Positions 22,581 to 27,663 of a DNA stretch of 36,071 bases are shown here, piece after piece. Position numbers and translations under genes: made by a program. The stretch comes from Elioraea sp. Yellowstone. Its GTDB lineage: Bacteria > Pseudomonadota > Alphaproteobacteria > Acetobacterales > Acetobacteraceae. The stretch spans positions 1 to 36,071 of the forward strand of contig NZ_VIKA01000018.1 of the NCBI RefSeq assembly GCF_006704265.1. The letters are read 5' to 3'. Each line of letters begins with the position of its first letter. Position 1 is the stretch's first letter. Under the pieces are notes generated by a model. That model made no database searches, was not told the origin of the DNA, and was given only the letters and a program-made list of their open reading frames with translations.

Positions 22581-23798
22581 CTAGCGCGGGCCGAGCCGCC
22601 TGCGCGTCGCGCCGAGCCCGAGCGCGGCGAGCAGGGCGAAGGCGGCGCCGGCGAGGAAGGTCCCCGCCGGCCCGACCGCATCCCAGAGCGCGCCGGCGAT
22701 CGTGCTGGCGGCCAGCAGCGCAAGCCCGCCCACCAGGTTGAACACGCCGAAGGCGGTGCCGCGCAGCTCCGCCGGCGCCGCATCCGCCACCAAGGCGGCG
22801 AACAGGCCCTGGGTGCAGCCCATGTGCAGGCCCCAGAGCACCACGCCGATGCCCACGCCGAGGATGCCGCCGGTGACGGCGAGCACCACGTCCGCCGCGA
22901 CCAGCAGCGCGAGACCGAGCAGCAGCAGGCCGACCCGGTCCATCCGGTCGGAGAGCGCACCGACCGGATAGGCGGAGAGCGCGTAGGCGATGTTCATGAC
23001 GACGAGCACCACAGGCACCAGCATCAGCGCGGTGCCGACCGACTGGGCGCGCAGGATCAGGAAGGCCTCGCTGAAGCGCGCCAGCGTGAACACCGCCGCG
23101 ATCCCGACCACCTGCCAGTACGCAGGTCCGAGGCGCGCGAGCTCGGCGCGCGCGAGCGGCGTGCGCACCGCGCGCAGCCCCGCCGGCCGCGGCGGCTCGT
23201 GCACCGCGACCACGACCAGCGCGAAGGACAGTCCCGCTGGCGCCACCGCGACCCAGAACACGGCGACGAAGTCGTCGGCGAACAGTGCCATCAGCCCGAT
23301 CGCGGCGAGCGGACCGAGGAACGCACCCACCGTGTCGAGCGACTGGCGCAGTCCGAAGCTTGCGCCGCGCAGCTCCGGGGGGCTGAGGTCGGCGACCAGC
23401 GCATCGCGCGGTGCGCCGCGGATGCCCTTGCCGAGGCGGTCGACAAAGCGTGCCGCCACCAGCCAGGCGACCGAGGGGGCGAGCGGGAAGACCGGCTTGG
23501 TGAGCGCGGCGAGCCCGTAGCCCAAGGCGGCAAGCGCCTTGCGCCGGCCGAGGCGGTCGGAGAGTGCGCCGGAAAACAGCTTGGTGATCGCCGCCGTCGC
23601 CTCGGCGATCCCCTCGATCAGGCCGACCGTCAGCACCGGTGTGCCAAGCGCGACCACCAGGTAGACCGGCAGCAGCGCATGGATCATCTCGGAGGAGACA
23701 TCCATCAGCAGCGAGACGAAGCCGAGCGCCCAAACCCCGCCCGGGATGCGCCGCCAGGCCGGCCCGTCGGCCTGCGGCGCCTGCCGCCCGGTCCTCAT
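22581..23798 (-). CDS. MFS transporter
   Basis: This 405-residue protein has 12 predicted membrane segments in two halves. The loop 2-3 motif GALSDRLGRRKALAALGY (about 76-93) and its second-half counterpart GALSDRMDRVG mark the major facilitator superfamily. RFVDRLGKGIRGAPRDALVAD (loop 4-5) is typical of a subgroup annotated as multidrug or sugar efflux permeases. It starts 13 nt after the DUF190 gene on the same strand, so it may be the tail of the fluoride-type operon. The substrate is unknown. Confidence 0.9.
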   Translation of the reverse strand: MRTGRQAPQADGPAWRRIPGGVWALGFVSLLMDVSSEMIHALLPVYLVVALGTPVLTVGLIEGIAEATAAITKLFSGALSDRLGRRKALAALGYGLAALTKPVFPLAPSVAWLVAARFVDRLGKGIRGAPRDALVADLSPPELRGASFGLRQSLDTVGAFLGPLAAIGLMALFADDFVAVFWVAVAPAGLSFALVVVAVHEPPRPAGLRAVRTPLARAELARLGPAYWQVVGIAAVFTLARFSEAFLILRAQSVGTALMLVPVVLVVMNIAYALSAYPVGALSDRMDRVGLLLLGLALLVAADVVLAVTGGILGVGIGVVLWGLHMGCTQGLFAALVADAAPAELRGTAFGVFNLVGGLALLAASTIAGALWDAVGPAGTFLAGAAFALLAALGLGATRRRLGPR

Positions 23799-23811
23799 CC
23801 CCCTGTGCCCG

Positions 23812-24159
23812 CTACCGTTGCGGATCGGCCCCGTACCGCAGGACCTCCACCCGCTCGAGCGTCACGAGGCCGCTGCCCATCAGCCCCTCGAGCACGGTGA
23901 GGAAACCGCGGATCTTCTCCTCGGCATCGACGATTTCGATCACCAGGGGCAGATCCTGCGAGAGGCGCAGGATCTTGGTGGTGTGCAGACGGCTCGACTG
24001 GCCGAACCCCATCGCGCCGCGCAGCACGGTCGCACCCGCGAGGTGCAGCTCGCGCGCCTTCAGCACGATCGCCTCGTAGAGTGGGCGGTCGCCATCGCGA
24101 TCGTCCTCGCCGATGAAGATGCGCAAGAGCAGCGCCTGCCGCGGAACCTGCATGATCAT
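23812..24159 (-). CDS. DUF190 domain protein
   Basis: This 115-residue cytoplasmic protein has a ferredoxin-like/PII-like pattern: LLRIFIGEDDR, YEAIVLKARELHLAGATVLRGAMGFG and a DLPLVIEIVD stretch. These are the signatures of DUF190 (COG1993), a family regularly encoded next to crcB fluoride channels. Function is unproven; a PII-like sensor of the channel or cell state has been proposed from fold. An in-frame ATG two codons later is equally usable. It overlaps the upstream crcB by 4 nt. Confidence 0.88.
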   Translation of the reverse strand: MIMQVPRQALLLRIFIGEDDRDGDRPLYEAIVLKARELHLAGATVLRGAMGFGQSSRLHTTKILRLSQDLPLVIEIVDAEEKIRGFLTVLEGLMGSGLVTLERVEVLRYGADPQR

Positions 24160-24596
24160 GGTCCTCCGAGCCGGTTGAGCCGCTGGGCGAGCAGGTGACC
24201 GGCCGCCACCGCGCCGAGCCAGGCGGCGAGCGAGACGAGCACGTAGAGCGCCGCGAGAAGCGGGGCGCCGGACTGGACCAGGCGCAGCGTCTCGAGGCTG
24301 AACACCGAGAAGGTGGTGAAGCCGCCGCAGATGCCGGCCATCACGAACTGGCGCGCGCGCGTGCGGGCGAAGACGCGCCCGTCGGGGCCGGTGAGCGTGG
24401 CGTAGAAGCCGATCGCGAAGGAGCCGAGGGTGTTCACGAACAGCGTGCCCCAGGGGAAGGCAGGACCGAGCAGCGCGACCGCGCCGAAGGAGGCGAGCGC
24501 ACGCAGTACCCCGCCGATCAGGCTGCCGAGCCCGACGAGCGCATAGAGCGCGACGACATCGGCCCGGGCCCGCCAGGGCGATGTGCCGCCGGTCAC
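24156..24596 (-). CDS. crcB: Fluoride channel subunit CrcB/Fluc (canonical Phe box)
   Basis: This 146-residue protein has four membrane segments. The pore asparagine is N55 (FPWGTLFVNTLGS), and the central TM3 break GICGGFTTFSVFSLET (88-103) carries both pore phenylalanines (F93, F96). Fluc channels are antiparallel dimers that let fluoride leave the cell passively. The GTG start (24596) overlaps the stop of the partner crcB gene. With the partner having a changed Phe box, the pair probably forms a heterodimeric Fluc. Confidence 0.92.
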   Translation of the reverse strand: MTGGTSPWRARADVVALYALVGLGSLIGGVLRALASFGAVALLGPAFPWGTLFVNTLGSFAIGFYATLTGPDGRVFARTRARQFVMAGICGGFTTFSVFSLETLRLVQSGAPLLAALYVLVSLAAWLGAVAAGHLLAQRLNRLGGP

Positions 24597-24991
24597 GCCG
24601 GCCGACCGAGCAGTGCCGCCATGGAGGCGAAACCGATCGCCGCTCCGCCCAGGCAGAGCACGAGCGAGCCGATCACGTTGCCGGCGACGCTCACCAGGCT
24701 GCCCTCGCGCAACAGCGCCAGGGTCTGAAGGCTGAACGAGGAGACGGTCGTATAGCTGCCGAGCACGCCGGTGACGAGGAGCGCCCAGGCATCGGGCGAG
24801 GTCCCGGGCGGAAACGCGGCAGCGGCGACGCCGATCGCGAGCGCCCCGGTCGCGTTCACCACCAGCGTGCCCCAGGGAAAGGTCTCGCCCACCGTGCGCG
24901 CGACCAGGCCGGAGACGAGGAAGCGAAGCGCCCCGCCGACGGTGCTGCCGAGCGCGACCCAGAACAGCGGGGCGAGCATGGCTGCGCTCAT
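24593..24991 (-). CDS. crcB: Fluoride channel subunit CrcB/Fluc (altered Phe box)
   Basis: This 132-residue protein has four membrane segments, with the pore Asn at N46 (FPWGTLVVNATGA) and TM3 break GVLGSYTTVSSFSLQT (75-90). The two pore-lining Phe are replaced by Tyr80 and Val83. It is coupled on both sides (ATGA with the upstream small gene, GTGA with the downstream crcB). The replacement is expected if only one set of Phe residues is needed in a heterodimeric channel. Confidence 0.9.
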   Translation of the reverse strand: MSAAMLAPLFWVALGSTVGGALRFLVSGLVARTVGETFPWGTLVVNATGALAIGVAAAAFPPGTSPDAWALLVTGVLGSYTTVSSFSLQTLALLREGSLVSVAGNVIGSLVLCLGGAAIGFASMAALLGRPA

Positions 24992-25212
24992 CGCGCCGCC
25001 CGCAGGGCGCGCCGGGCGCCCCGCCACACGCTCGCGACGAGCACCGCCGGGCAGCCGAGCGCCAGCAGGCCGCCGCCAAGCCATGGCGCGGCACCGGCGA
25101 GGTCGATCACGGCAGCGGACGCGCCGACGACCGTGAGCGCGGCGGCCGAGAGGTGCGCATCCGCTGCCACCATGCCGAGCAGTTCGGCCAGCACCTCGCG
25201 CAACAGGCTCAT
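24988..25212 (-). CDS. Small membrane protein of unknown function
   Basis: This 74-residue protein starts at the ATG at 25212, which overlaps the upstream gene's stop (ATGA). It has a short amphipathic N-terminus (MSLLREVLAELLGMVAADAH), two hydrophobic segments (about 22-38 and 40-56) and an Arg-rich tail. I do not recognise a family. Tight overlaps on both sides in the fluoride-type operon make it a real gene, perhaps an accessory of the COG4280-like protein or of Fluc. Confidence 0.7.
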   Translation of the reverse strand: MSLLREVLAELLGMVAADAHLSAAALTVVGASAAVIDLAGAAPWLGGGLLALGCPAVLVASVWRGARRALRAAR

Positions 25213-25955
25213 CGCACGGCCTCCCGGGCCGCTTGCCGCGCTGCGGCGGTCGCGCACAGACCTGCCGCGAGGAACAGCAGCGCCAGCACGAAGAGCGCGC
25301 CCTCCTGCCCCGGCCAGTCCACGCCCAGCCCCTCACCGGTCCAGAACACGCCGAACGCGGCGAGCATCGTGCCGACGCCGAACTTCAGGCTGTTCTCGGG
25401 CACGCGGGCGAGGGGGCGATGCAGCATGGCGCCGAGCCCGAGCACCAGGCCGCAGGCGGCCAGCGCGCCCAGCGCCGCCGGCACGACCGAACCGTGCCCA
25501 GCACCGACCGCAAGCACCACGAAGACCACCTCCAGCCCCTCCAGCAGCACCGCCTTGAAGGCGGCAAGCCCGGCGATCCAGTCGCCCGTGGCGCGGCTGG
25601 GGGCGGCCGCGGAGCCGAGCGCCGCGCGGGCGCGGGCGTAGACGGCGTCCTCGTCGCGCGGCGGCAGCACGCCCGCGGCGCGCAGCGCGGCCTTGCGCAG
25701 CCAGCCGAGGCCGAACAGCAGGAGCAGGATGCCGACGGCGAGCTGGACGGGAGCGATGGGCATGCCGGCAAGCAGGGGACCGAACCCGGCCACCAGGGCC
25801 GCAAGGACCGCAAGGGCGGCGGCGGTGCCGGACGCGGCCGGACGCCAGCCGCGCAGGGTCGCAACCGCGAGCACGATGGTGAACGCCTCCACCACCTCGA
25901 CCAGGGAGGCGAGGAAGGCGGCTCCGATCGCCGGCGCCGCCGCCGAGAGGGTCAT
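25209..25955 (-). CDS. COG4280-like integral membrane protein
   Basis: This 248-residue protein has about seven membrane segments in two related halves. Each half holds an ExxE motif within a membrane helix: E20/E23 in SLVEVVEAFTIVLAV and E139/E142 in AVLLEGLEVVFVVLAV. The pattern resembles the REGLE helices of Ftr1-type iron permeases and UPF0016-type cation transporters, so it may move a cation. COG4280 is the closest family I can name, from memory. It lies between the ChrB-domain gene and the crcB pair. Confidence 0.7.
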   Translation of the reverse strand: MTLSAAAPAIGAAFLASLVEVVEAFTIVLAVATLRGWRPAASGTAAALAVLAALVAGFGPLLAGMPIAPVQLAVGILLLLFGLGWLRKAALRAAGVLPPRDEDAVYARARAALGSAAAPSRATGDWIAGLAAFKAVLLEGLEVVFVVLAVGAGHGSVVPAALGALAACGLVLGLGAMLHRPLARVPENSLKFGVGTMLAAFGVFWTGEGLGVDWPGQEGALFVLALLFLAAGLCATAAARQAAREAVR

Positions 25956-25988
25956 GGCGCGGCCTCCTTCGCGGGCGGGACGGAGGCG

Positions 25989-26528
25989 TCAGGCATTCTC
26001 GTCCTGCGCCTCGAACACCTGGCGGGCATAGGCGTCGAGCAGCGTCTCGCAGGCGGCAAGCCGCTGCTCGGCTTCGCTGCGCAGCGCGGCGCCGTAGAAG
26101 TCGAGGCGCACGATCTTCGCGAGCCAGCCCTGGAGCTTCTTCAGGTCGACGTCGTTCTCCTCGAGCTCCGCGTAGGTGAAGTGCTGCGCGGCCTGCTCCT
26201 TCGCCACCTCGCGCTCGAAATCCCCGCACTTGTCGATGAACTCGCGATAGGCCTCGTCACGGTCGGCCTTGAAGCGGGCGACGACCTTCTCCTCCTGGGC
26301 GCGGTCGAGCGCGACCGCCTCGAGGATCACGGCCTCGCCCCCGGCACCGGCGATCTCGTTCTCGAGCATCTTCAGGCGGCGGACGTGATCGTCGGTACGG
26401 GGCAGGAGGCAGACGCCGTTCTGCACATAGACCGCGCCCAGTCCCTTCAGGCGGCGCCAGACCGCGACTCGGACCTTCGCCGGCTCCGGGGGGACGCGAT
26501 AGGCGAGCAGAAGCCAGCGCGTATCCAT
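25989..26528 (-). CDS. ChrB N-terminal domain protein (chromate-resistance regulator-like)
   Basis: This 179-residue protein begins with the ChrB_N pattern WLLLAYRVPPEPAKVRVAVWRRLKGLGAV (split here as residues 5-33), followed by a long charged helical region with E/K-rich stretches. Full-length ChrB is longer and has a second domain, which is missing. ChrB acts as a chromate-responsive regulator of chrA, but no chrA is in this window. As the first gene of the operon it may regulate it in response to an oxyanion or fluoride. There is no Shine-Dalgarno before the ATG; a leaderless start is possible. Confidence 0.82.
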   Translation of the reverse strand: MDTRWLLLAYRVPPEPAKVRVAVWRRLKGLGAVYVQNGVCLLPRTDDHVRRLKMLENEIAGAGGEAVILEAVALDRAQEEKVVARFKADRDEAYREFIDKCGDFEREVAKEQAAQHFTYAELEENDVDLKKLQGWLAKIVRLDFYGAALRSEAEQRLAACETLLDAYARQVFEAQDENA

Positions 26529-26565
26529 GGAACGTCTGTACTGTATCGGTTGTAACAGATCAAGC
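26529..26565 (-). promoter_or_regulatory. Candidate promoter/operator of the ChrB-crcB operon
   Basis: On the minus strand TTGATC and TACAGA are 17 nt apart, a weak -35/-10 pair that would start transcription near the ATG at 26528. The inverted repeat TCTGTTA...TACAGA (26535-26559) covers the spacer and -10, where a repressor could act. No crcB (fluoride) riboswitch pattern is recognisable in this gap. Confidence 0.35.
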
Positions 26566-26691
26566 GCGACGATGTCCAGGCGGTCGGGGCGCGCCCGTAC
26601 CCTCCGCGTTGCCGACCGACCGTCTCGTCTTTATGGTCCGCGCGTCCGCGGGGACCCCCGCGCGCCCCACTCGCCCAGGGAGGATGTTCCG

Positions 26692-27663
26692 ATGCGCCTG
26701 ACGCGCCGATTCCTTGCGGCCGGCCTCGCCGCTGCCGTCGCGGCACCCGCCGCCGCCCAGACCAACGTCACGCTGACGCATGCGCTGCCCTTGGACAGCC
26801 ACTACGGCGTCGGGGCCGTCGCCTTCAAGGAAACGGTCGAGCGGCTGACCAACGGGCGCTACCGCGTCACCATCCAGCGCAACGACAACGAGCGCGAGGC
26901 GATCGAGGCGACGCAGATCGGCACGCAGGAGTTCACCATCACCTCGACCGGACCGGTCGGCAACTTCATCCCCGACACGCTGGTGCTCGACATCCCCTTC
27001 CTGTTCCGCGACTACGCCCATGCGCGCGGCGTGCTCGACAGCGCGATCGGCCAGGACCTGCTGGCGAAGTTCTCCGCCCGCGGCCTGGTCGGCGTGGCCT
27101 GGATGGAGAACGGGTTCCGCAACGTCACCAATTCGCGGCGCGAGGTCGCCGGCCCCGCCGACGTGCAGGGGCTGAAGATCCGCACCATGGAGAACCCGGT
27201 GCACATGCGCGCCTTCCAGACGCTCGGCGCGCTGCCCACGCCGATGGCGTTCAGCGAGCTCGTGCCCGCGCTGCAGCAGGGCACGGTGGACGGCCAGGAG
27301 AACCCGATCCCGGTGATCGTGGCGAACAATCTCAACCAGGTGCAGCGGTATCTCTCGCTGACGCGGCACGTCTATTCGCCGGCGGTTCTGATCGGCAACC
27401 CGGCCTTCTGGAACAGGCTGAACGCGGCCGACAAGGCGGCGTTCCAGGAGGCCGCCAAGGCGGCGGTGAAGGCGAACCGAGACCGCGTGACGGCCGACGA
27501 GCAGCGCGGCGTGACGCTCCTGCGCGAACGCGGCATGACCGTGCGCGAGAGCGTCGACACGGCCGCCTTCCAGGCCGCGCTCGCCCCGGCCTTCGAGCAG
27601 TACCGGCGCCAGTTCGACGCCGCACTGATCCAGCGCATCATCGACTGGAAGCCCGGCAGCTGA
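26692..27663 (+). CDS. dctP: TRAP transporter substrate-binding protein DctP
   Basis: This 323-residue periplasmic protein has a signal peptide (RLTRRFLAAGLAAAVAAPAAAQ). DctP features include NVTLTHALPLDSHYGVGAV at the mature N-terminus, the carboxylate-binding Arg in GLKIRTMENPVHMRAFQTLG, and FSELVPALQQGTVDGQENP. Most ligands are C4-dicarboxylates, sugar acids or other organic acids. The ATG at 26692 follows ggaggatgttccg, a normal ribosome-binding site; an upstream in-frame start gives no signal peptide. Stop and dctQ start overlap (TGATG). Confidence 0.95.
   Translation: MRLTRRFLAAGLAAAVAAPAAAQTNVTLTHALPLDSHYGVGAVAFKETVERLTNGRYRVTIQRNDNEREAIEATQIGTQEFTITSTGPVGNFIPDTLVLDIPFLFRDYAHARGVLDSAIGQDLLAKFSARGLVGVAWMENGFRNVTNSRREVAGPADVQGLKIRTMENPVHMRAFQTLGALPTPMAFSELVPALQQGTVDGQENPIPVIVANNLNQVQRYLSLTRHVYSPAVLIGNPAFWNRLNAADKAAFQEAAKAAVKANRDRVTADEQRGVTLLRERGMTVRESVDTAAFQAALAPAFEQYRRQFDAALIQRIIDWKPGS

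Follow-up and report, generated by a model that had tools for sequence, protein, structure and literature searches.

A seven-gene minus-strand run in a 36,071-nt stretch of DNA from Elioraea sp. Yellowstone (NZ_VIKA01000018.1; the window, below) is probably a mobile fluoride-export operon, controlled locally by autorepression through its own first gene product, a short ChrB protein, acting at a palindrome in the promoter spacer and released by a stress signal. The run reads chrB–FTR-like–74-amino-acid (aa) protein–crcB1–crcB2–DUF190–MFS. In the mechanism that we propose from sequence, short ChrB, presumably as a dimer, would bind a 16-bp palindrome between the −35 and −10 elements and block access of RNA polymerase to the promoter until a stress signal frees it. 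One leaderless transcript would then encode ChrB, an FTR-like metal transporter, a small membrane protein, a Fluc pair, a DUF190 protein and an MFS transporter, and the asymmetric two-gene Fluc channel would let F− out of the cell. The signal may be linked to fluoride, as F− itself, as a metal-fluoride species or through another effect.

The promoter carries much of this reading. The operator-like palindrome TGTTACAACCGATACA (26542–26557, minus strand; one mismatch to TGTWACN4GTWACA) lies within a 17-bp spacer between the −35 element TTGATC (26558–26563, minus strand), which belongs to the pattern matched in the organism's own genome, and the −10 element TACAGA (26535–26540, minus strand), which was assigned from the sequence and the family promoter consensus and is followed 6 nt later by the ATG. 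To define that family, we scanned genome contigs and found 370 relatives, of which the best 80, that is, the closest kin, are counted throughout; together with 7 plasmid stretches and the window these gave 88 loci and 81 distinct upstream regions. In the consensus, the 16-bp palindrome occupies the 17-bp −35/−10 spacer, TATAAT-like bases come next and, across 76 aligned promoters, a TTGA at fixed position ahead of the palindrome is conserved at 87–96% per base. TGTWAC-N4-GTWACA was matched without mismatch in 42 of the 81 promoters, with one mismatch in 30, with two in 6 and with three in 1, giving 72/81 with at most one mismatch and 79/81 with at most three. Shuffled promoters never reached one mismatch or fewer and reached three or fewer in about 8% of cases, and a control stretch 160–80 nt upstream contained the palindrome with at most one mismatch in 1/79. 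The ATG lay 13 or 14 nt past the palindrome in 66/79. In the 3.82-Mb draft genome (358 contigs), TTGANNTGTWACNNNNGWWACA with up to two mismatches had a single site, ahead of chrB, and the reversed-pattern control had none. This spacing suggests a leaderless operon transcript that would start at or beside the ATG, so that no riboswitch could fit ahead of chrB.

The lead gene, chrB (25989–26528, minus strand), encodes a 179-aa protein with a ChrB_N domain only (PF20229, E = 2e-42, residues 20–177). The long ChrB of the Ochrobactrum tritici transposon TnOtChr is a chromate-responsive repressor; its R18A and R23A mutants are constitutive, and R180, R187 and H229 are required for induction by chromate (PMC3817168). 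The two proteins share ChrB_N, a place at the head of a mobile resistance operon, two repression-linked arginines and a proposed site in their own promoter. For alignment we used a 312-aa ChrB from a plasmid chr operon whose promoter carries the 34-nt inverted repeat reported for TnOtChr (the repeat was found in 3 plasmid records) and which has the residue named in PMC3817168 at 6/6 positions checked. R20 and R25 of the window protein align with R18 and R23 and are invariant in 88/88 short proteins, but the window protein stops short of R180, R187 and H229 and lacks the C-terminal, chromate-sensing domain altogether. C40, H48, C101 and C160 are likewise invariant in 88/88 short proteins; they correspond to Y38, C46, S84 and C142 in the aligned long form and leave the invariant list once five long-type relatives join the alignment. 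These four residues are a candidate sensor site.

These differences bear on the idea that short ChrB senses chromate as long ChrB does and that the fluoride genes merely ride along. Membership of the ChrB_N family and the chromate response of long ChrB speak for it (PMC3817168), but the residues needed for induction lie in the missing domain, one ChrA query matched at 0/80 short-chrB loci, and the chrA-like genes of the organism itself are on contigs C88 and C295, away from the window on C99; we consider it very improbable. A match to the C-terminal portion of the 312-aa protein lay near 1/80 short-chrB loci (L092). Furthermore, the window chrB heads fluoride genes rather than chrA. The original prediction had proposed a protein-based response to fluoride or an oxyanion, and its chromate side is left unsupported.

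Whether ChrB itself reads the palindrome was weighed from structure prediction and from more distant relatives. The AlphaFold model (predicted local distance difference test (pLDDT) 91, predicted template-modelling score 0.65) has a beta-alpha-beta-beta-alpha-beta domain followed by three long C-terminal helices. Foldseek returned PaaX as the top Protein Data Bank match (8a39, E = 1.7e-3), then Cas2 proteins, none of them reaching E 0.001; VIA-align rows were chiefly helical bundles, and a sequence search of solved structures gave 3 matches (best E 0.096), none convincing. The first domain thus resembles the PaaX/Cas2-like fold, whereas the model continues into the three helices and has no winged helix before or after that domain. 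PaaX does not read DNA through its Cas2-like domain. Both points would fit an arrangement in which a different, host-encoded factor binds the palindrome and short ChrB has another function. We regard this as unlikely, because hosts that differ widely carry the same palindrome ahead of short chrB and the organism's own genome has it at a single site, because a related palindrome stands ahead of long chrB genes, and because the R18 and R23 mutants of long ChrB are constitutive.

The related palindrome, TGWWAC-N4-GTWWCA with at most two mismatches, was present ahead of 12/13 long-type chrB loci and at 14/15 loci overall. This looser pattern was picked after five loci; the ten others were new (eight long-type, one short and one 164-aa frame), and 10/10 of these carried it, including 8/8 new long-type loci. 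Shuffle frequencies for the 14 loci ranged from 0 to 0.073 each, and those for two mismatches from 0.03 to 0.073, so that a locus taken singly is weak evidence and the strength lies only in the set as a whole. Because long-type chrB has this related palindrome, the shared N-terminal domain is its likely reader. We infer that short ChrB would act as a palindrome-binding protein and repressor, the DNA-binding step resting on family evidence and conservation. The published O. tritici inverted repeat was set aside as a general ChrB site since the window palindrome is not clear in that promoter; therefore, we do not claim one common operator for both systems. Copies of the palindrome were also seen upstream of EEP–MFS genes without a chrB head, at about 230 nt (L125) and 320 nt (L117).

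No fluoride riboswitch was visible in the original prediction, and the searches bear this out: in the window no Rfam family scored as high as its gathering threshold, a permissive Rfam scan of 23700–26900 contained no crcB motif, RF01734 had 0 matches in the draft genome, and a model derived from 15 fluoride riboswitches had no match in the window. The permissive scan and the 15-riboswitch model thus gave no sign of a hidden crcB riboswitch, which could have overturned a protein-based response; one in the chrB/FTR-like gap, as at L026 and L029, was rejected because the 33-nt gap is shorter than the 64-position motif. The window operon shares the export genes crcB and DUF190 with RF01734-controlled crcB operons but lacks the riboswitch and, apparently, the 5′ leader; in their place it has a lead gene that codes for a protein, and an operator-like site, so that ChrB may stand in for the riboswitch. 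With no riboswitch, the repression-linked arginines kept and an operator-like site occurring once in the genome, the operon is best read as one with a protein-based response. According to a 2024 review, riboswitches regulate only about 15% of Flucs and other, unknown mechanisms exist (PMC11139923). The two kinds of control coexist elsewhere: at L026 and L029 a fluoride riboswitch lies between a short chrB and the next gene.

The remaining genes predicted for the operon are all present on the minus strand: FTR-like (the COG4280-like protein of the original prediction; 25209–25955; 248 aa; OFeT_1, E = 7.5e-7), the small hydrophobic 74-aa protein (24988–25212), crcB1 (24593–24991; CRCB, E = 2.3e-22), crcB2 (24156–24596; CRCB, E = 3e-23) and DUF190 (COG1993; 23812–24159; E = 1.7e-38); an MFS transporter gene (22581–23798; MFS_1, E = 2.5e-48) ends the run. 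The chrB/FTR-like gap is 33 nt, each of the four junctions from FTR-like to DUF190 is a 4-nt overlap and the DUF190/MFS gap is 13 nt, lengths that depend on the start codons chosen. The overlaps suggest that the genes from FTR-like to DUF190 may be translationally coupled. They also weigh against constitutive expression of the crcB pair, or expression from an internal promoter, with chrB controlling nothing relevant to fluoride. Stretches fetched from other genomes do contain a crcB1–crcB2–DUF190 unit without chrB, as that explanation would have it, but the order chrB, FTR-like, crcB, crcB, DUF190 recurs at 6/80 loci and on the plasmid L014, and we give the idea little credence.

We then asked how closely short chrB is tied to fluoride genes. 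Neighbours were counted up to 8 kb per side, a span that was complete in both directions at 41/80 loci, so neighbour absence is less certain than presence; the 80 loci include near-copies (L033/L034, L040/L042, L055/L093, L058/L059 and L077–L079). Co-location of ChrB_N and crcB, on which the original prediction depended, extends beyond the window, as crcB was near 16/80 short chrB loci, and crcB, DUF190 or a fluoride riboswitch was near 21/80. Fluoride riboswitches occurred at 17/80 loci. By genome, 16/79 had a riboswitch at the short-chrB locus, against at most 0.51 loci expected by chance (P ~1e-22), and P was still ~2e-13 when only 11 genomes were counted as independent; expected numbers were taken from matches with E ≤ 0.001, a few of them below the gathering score, in the same 79 genomes (175 matches in ~408 Mb). 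The placement was also close. Riboswitches started 32 nt (L026), 28 nt (L029) and 110 nt (L098) after the chrB stop, and at L022, L046, L055 and L093 an opposite-strand riboswitch ended 108–121 nt before the chrB start (the L046 copy was below the Rfam cut-off). Eighteen stretches of ~3.5 kb (13 with long-type chrB, 2 with other hits and 3 with short chrB) yielded one weak match (23.5 bits, L012), a rough comparison because their flanks are shorter.

The cargo of short chrB is broad. Besides the chrB–FTR-like–small protein–crcB–crcB–DUF190 type (the window, L014, L026, L029, L031, L033, L034 and L035; the small protein was not matched in each), we found chrB–FTR-like without crcB, chrB–MFS (the commonest), chrB–mcr-5–MFS (L018 and L077–L079), chrB–CDF, chrB–EEP–MFS and others. 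Downstream chains of open reading frames, which were built mechanically with guessed start codons and in which double counting is possible, contained the MFS cluster at 44 of the 80 loci, FTR-like at 24, PAP2-type at 19, CDF at 9, EEP at 7 and mcr-5 at 3. Thus, the lead gene is not specific to fluoride. In a quick tree built from 88 ChrBs, the six labels given to the cargo (including 'other') needed 21 changes, compared with 43 when shuffled and a minimum of 5, so cargo is mostly retained yet exchanged at times; the window ChrB sat on a long end branch with no firm neighbours. In Elioraea tepidiphila, chrB–MFS (L024) and a crcB1–crcB2–DUF190 unit (L101) are on separate contigs, and the window joins both. 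Short ChrB is itself uncommon: the window protein was matched in 9/200 genomes of the order, 4 of them (its own included) at 67–100% identity and the others at 31–40% or through a 31-residue piece.

Cargo diversity, the tree, the loci without a fluoride gene nearby and the separate units in E. tepidiphila are what one would expect if short ChrB were a general mobile stress repressor (responding, for example, to metals, oxyanions or envelope stress), with fluoride genes one cargo among many, acquired through shared resistance islands. We assign this explanation somewhat less than an even chance. Against it, fluoride parts are strongly enriched around short chrB and chrA is not, and the riboswitches stand at the short distances given above, on the same strand after chrB (28–32 nt at L026 and L029) and on the opposite strand ahead of it. 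As to the signal, gene position favours one linked to fluoride and cargo range favours a broader stress; it may not be fluoride, because 59/80 loci have no fluoride neighbour and the cargo includes mcr-5, CDF and MFS genes. A bolder form of the fluoride link, which we put forward tentatively and think doubtful, is that short ChrB senses fluoride or metal-fluoride species as a protein counterpart of the fluoride riboswitch. The invariant Cys/His set would then replace the lost chromate domain, in mobile operons of which some lie inside dense riboswitch islands.

Several observations weigh against a fluoride-export operon repressed by short ChrB. Within the stretches examined, 59/80 loci were free of crcB, DUF190 and fluoride riboswitches, 40/79 genomes had no fluoride riboswitch match, which argues against a strict fluoride role, and the cargo range points the same way. 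Two of the 81 promoters (L032, 4 mismatches; L052, 6 mismatches) are without the palindrome, the window copy is itself imperfect and its −10 element weak, and the best match in the O. tritici-like promoter (L142) is a poor one, with 3 mismatches. No winged helix is predicted. Finally, in the O. tritici report, N- or C-terminal parts of ChrB alone failed to regulate, and ChrB still bound a promoter carrying a mutated inverted repeat (PMC3817168).

The Fluc subunits of the operon are unequal, as the original prediction held: the Phe box is GSYTTVSSF in crcB1 and GGFTTFSVF in crcB2. The same-order crcB pair occurs in L014, L026, L029 (with an extra frame between), L031, L033, L034 and L035, and among the eight operons of the window type YTTV was kept in crcB1 of 8/8 and FTTF in crcB2 of 7/8. 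In L031, a metagenome-assembled genome, the Phe-box stretch of crcB2 is missing (around 10306), through true loss or an assembly fault; in L029 (region 10055), the crcB1 frame extends, by eye, into a long anion-transporter-like stretch between crcB1 and crcB2. The asymmetry is conserved outside ChrB operons as well, and a heterodimer is predicted. Among fetched crcB regions from short-chrB genomes, 8/10 (L101–L105 and L107–L109) contain a crcB pair without chrB and with the YTTV form, beside a partner with an FTTF, YTTF or LTTF box; the L104 and L109 pairs stand behind a fluoride riboswitch. Such asymmetry is not new, because asymmetric Fluc heterodimers have been described (PMC5636608). The La1/La2, Sa1/Sa2 and Mt1/Mt2 heterodimers are likewise each encoded by a pair of neighbouring crcB genes whose Phe boxes differ. 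In the window pair, one subunit has both Phe positions replaced (Tyr and Val), a marked change; the La and Sa pairs retain three of four Phe, and in the Mt pair neither subunit keeps Phe at the second position (PMC5636608). Other sources describe the eukaryotic FEX proteins as one-pore (PMC5417652) and heterodimeric Flucs as rarer in Gram-negatives (PMC11139923).

ChrB-family repressors and Fluc export are also known as kinds. The novelty lies in the variant: ChrB_N here stands alone and has a Cys/His set of its own, the operator is built into a promoter that apparently lacks a leader, and both are used ahead of fluoride genes. Judged by titles and the starts of abstracts, no ChrB–fluoride link was found in the literature, and the text of a paper on an Enterobacter cloacae fluoride operon contains no 'ChrB' (PMC5533749). 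A candidate regulator, an operator defined to the base and possible sensor residues make the regulation of Flucs without riboswitches directly testable, and the compact promoter–repressor pair could serve as a biosensor part if an inducer is found.

The finding touches mcr-5 as well. The 'chromate resistance protein ChrB' that precedes mcr-5 (L018, 3112–3654; L077–L079) is the short form, about 71% identical to the window protein, and is likewise the first gene before its cargo with the same type of palindrome upstream; a chromate role is therefore doubtful there, and the annotation gains a different reading. These transposons differ from the window in their cargo (mcr-5 and MFS) and in a start codon further from the palindrome, and no crcB, DUF190 or fluoride riboswitch was matched in their stretches.

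Among the other cargo proteins, the FTR-like product falls below the cut-off of the FTR1 profile and reaches 29.5 bits with OFeT_1 (cut-off 26.9). The ExxE pairs E20/E23 and E139/E142 are invariant among 20 FTR-like sequences. Its predicted model is middling (pLDDT 76), with BbZIP as top structural match (Z 9.9, 111 residues, 5.4 Å), and its profile found no relative in a sequence search of solved structures. The 74-aa protein had no Pfam match at E up to 1, and tblastn found homologues behind the FTR-like gene at many loci. Homologues of the MFS transporter (~63–79% identity) lie shortly downstream of short chrB at many loci. At L015, L016, L027, L031, L033–L035, L037 and L089, a small DUF1127-like reading frame was seen by eye in a ~230–250-nt gap between chrB and the next gene, and the L016 and L017 records carry a DUF1127 annotation. 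Divergent from chrB in the window is a gene for a TRAP-type DctP substrate-binding protein (26527–27663, plus strand); its long open reading frame overlaps the chrB start, and the real DctP start is probably further downstream.

Fluoride riboswitches were clustered in some of the genomes surveyed. One contig, that of L058 in Paraburkholderia sp. DHOC27 (G233 contig C3, 51–177 kb; L111–L117), holds 34 within ~126 kb, with short chrB nearby. G239, G211, G234, G214, G231, G207 and G242 have 9–24 matches each, mainly on one contig (the same set on two in G207). These dense contigs look like large fluoride-response islands, of which we found no account in the literature as judged by titles and abstract starts. 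The Pollutimonas bauzanensis assembly contains the same chrB–CDF–PAP2–FTR-like block with riboswitches on two contigs (L040 and L042).

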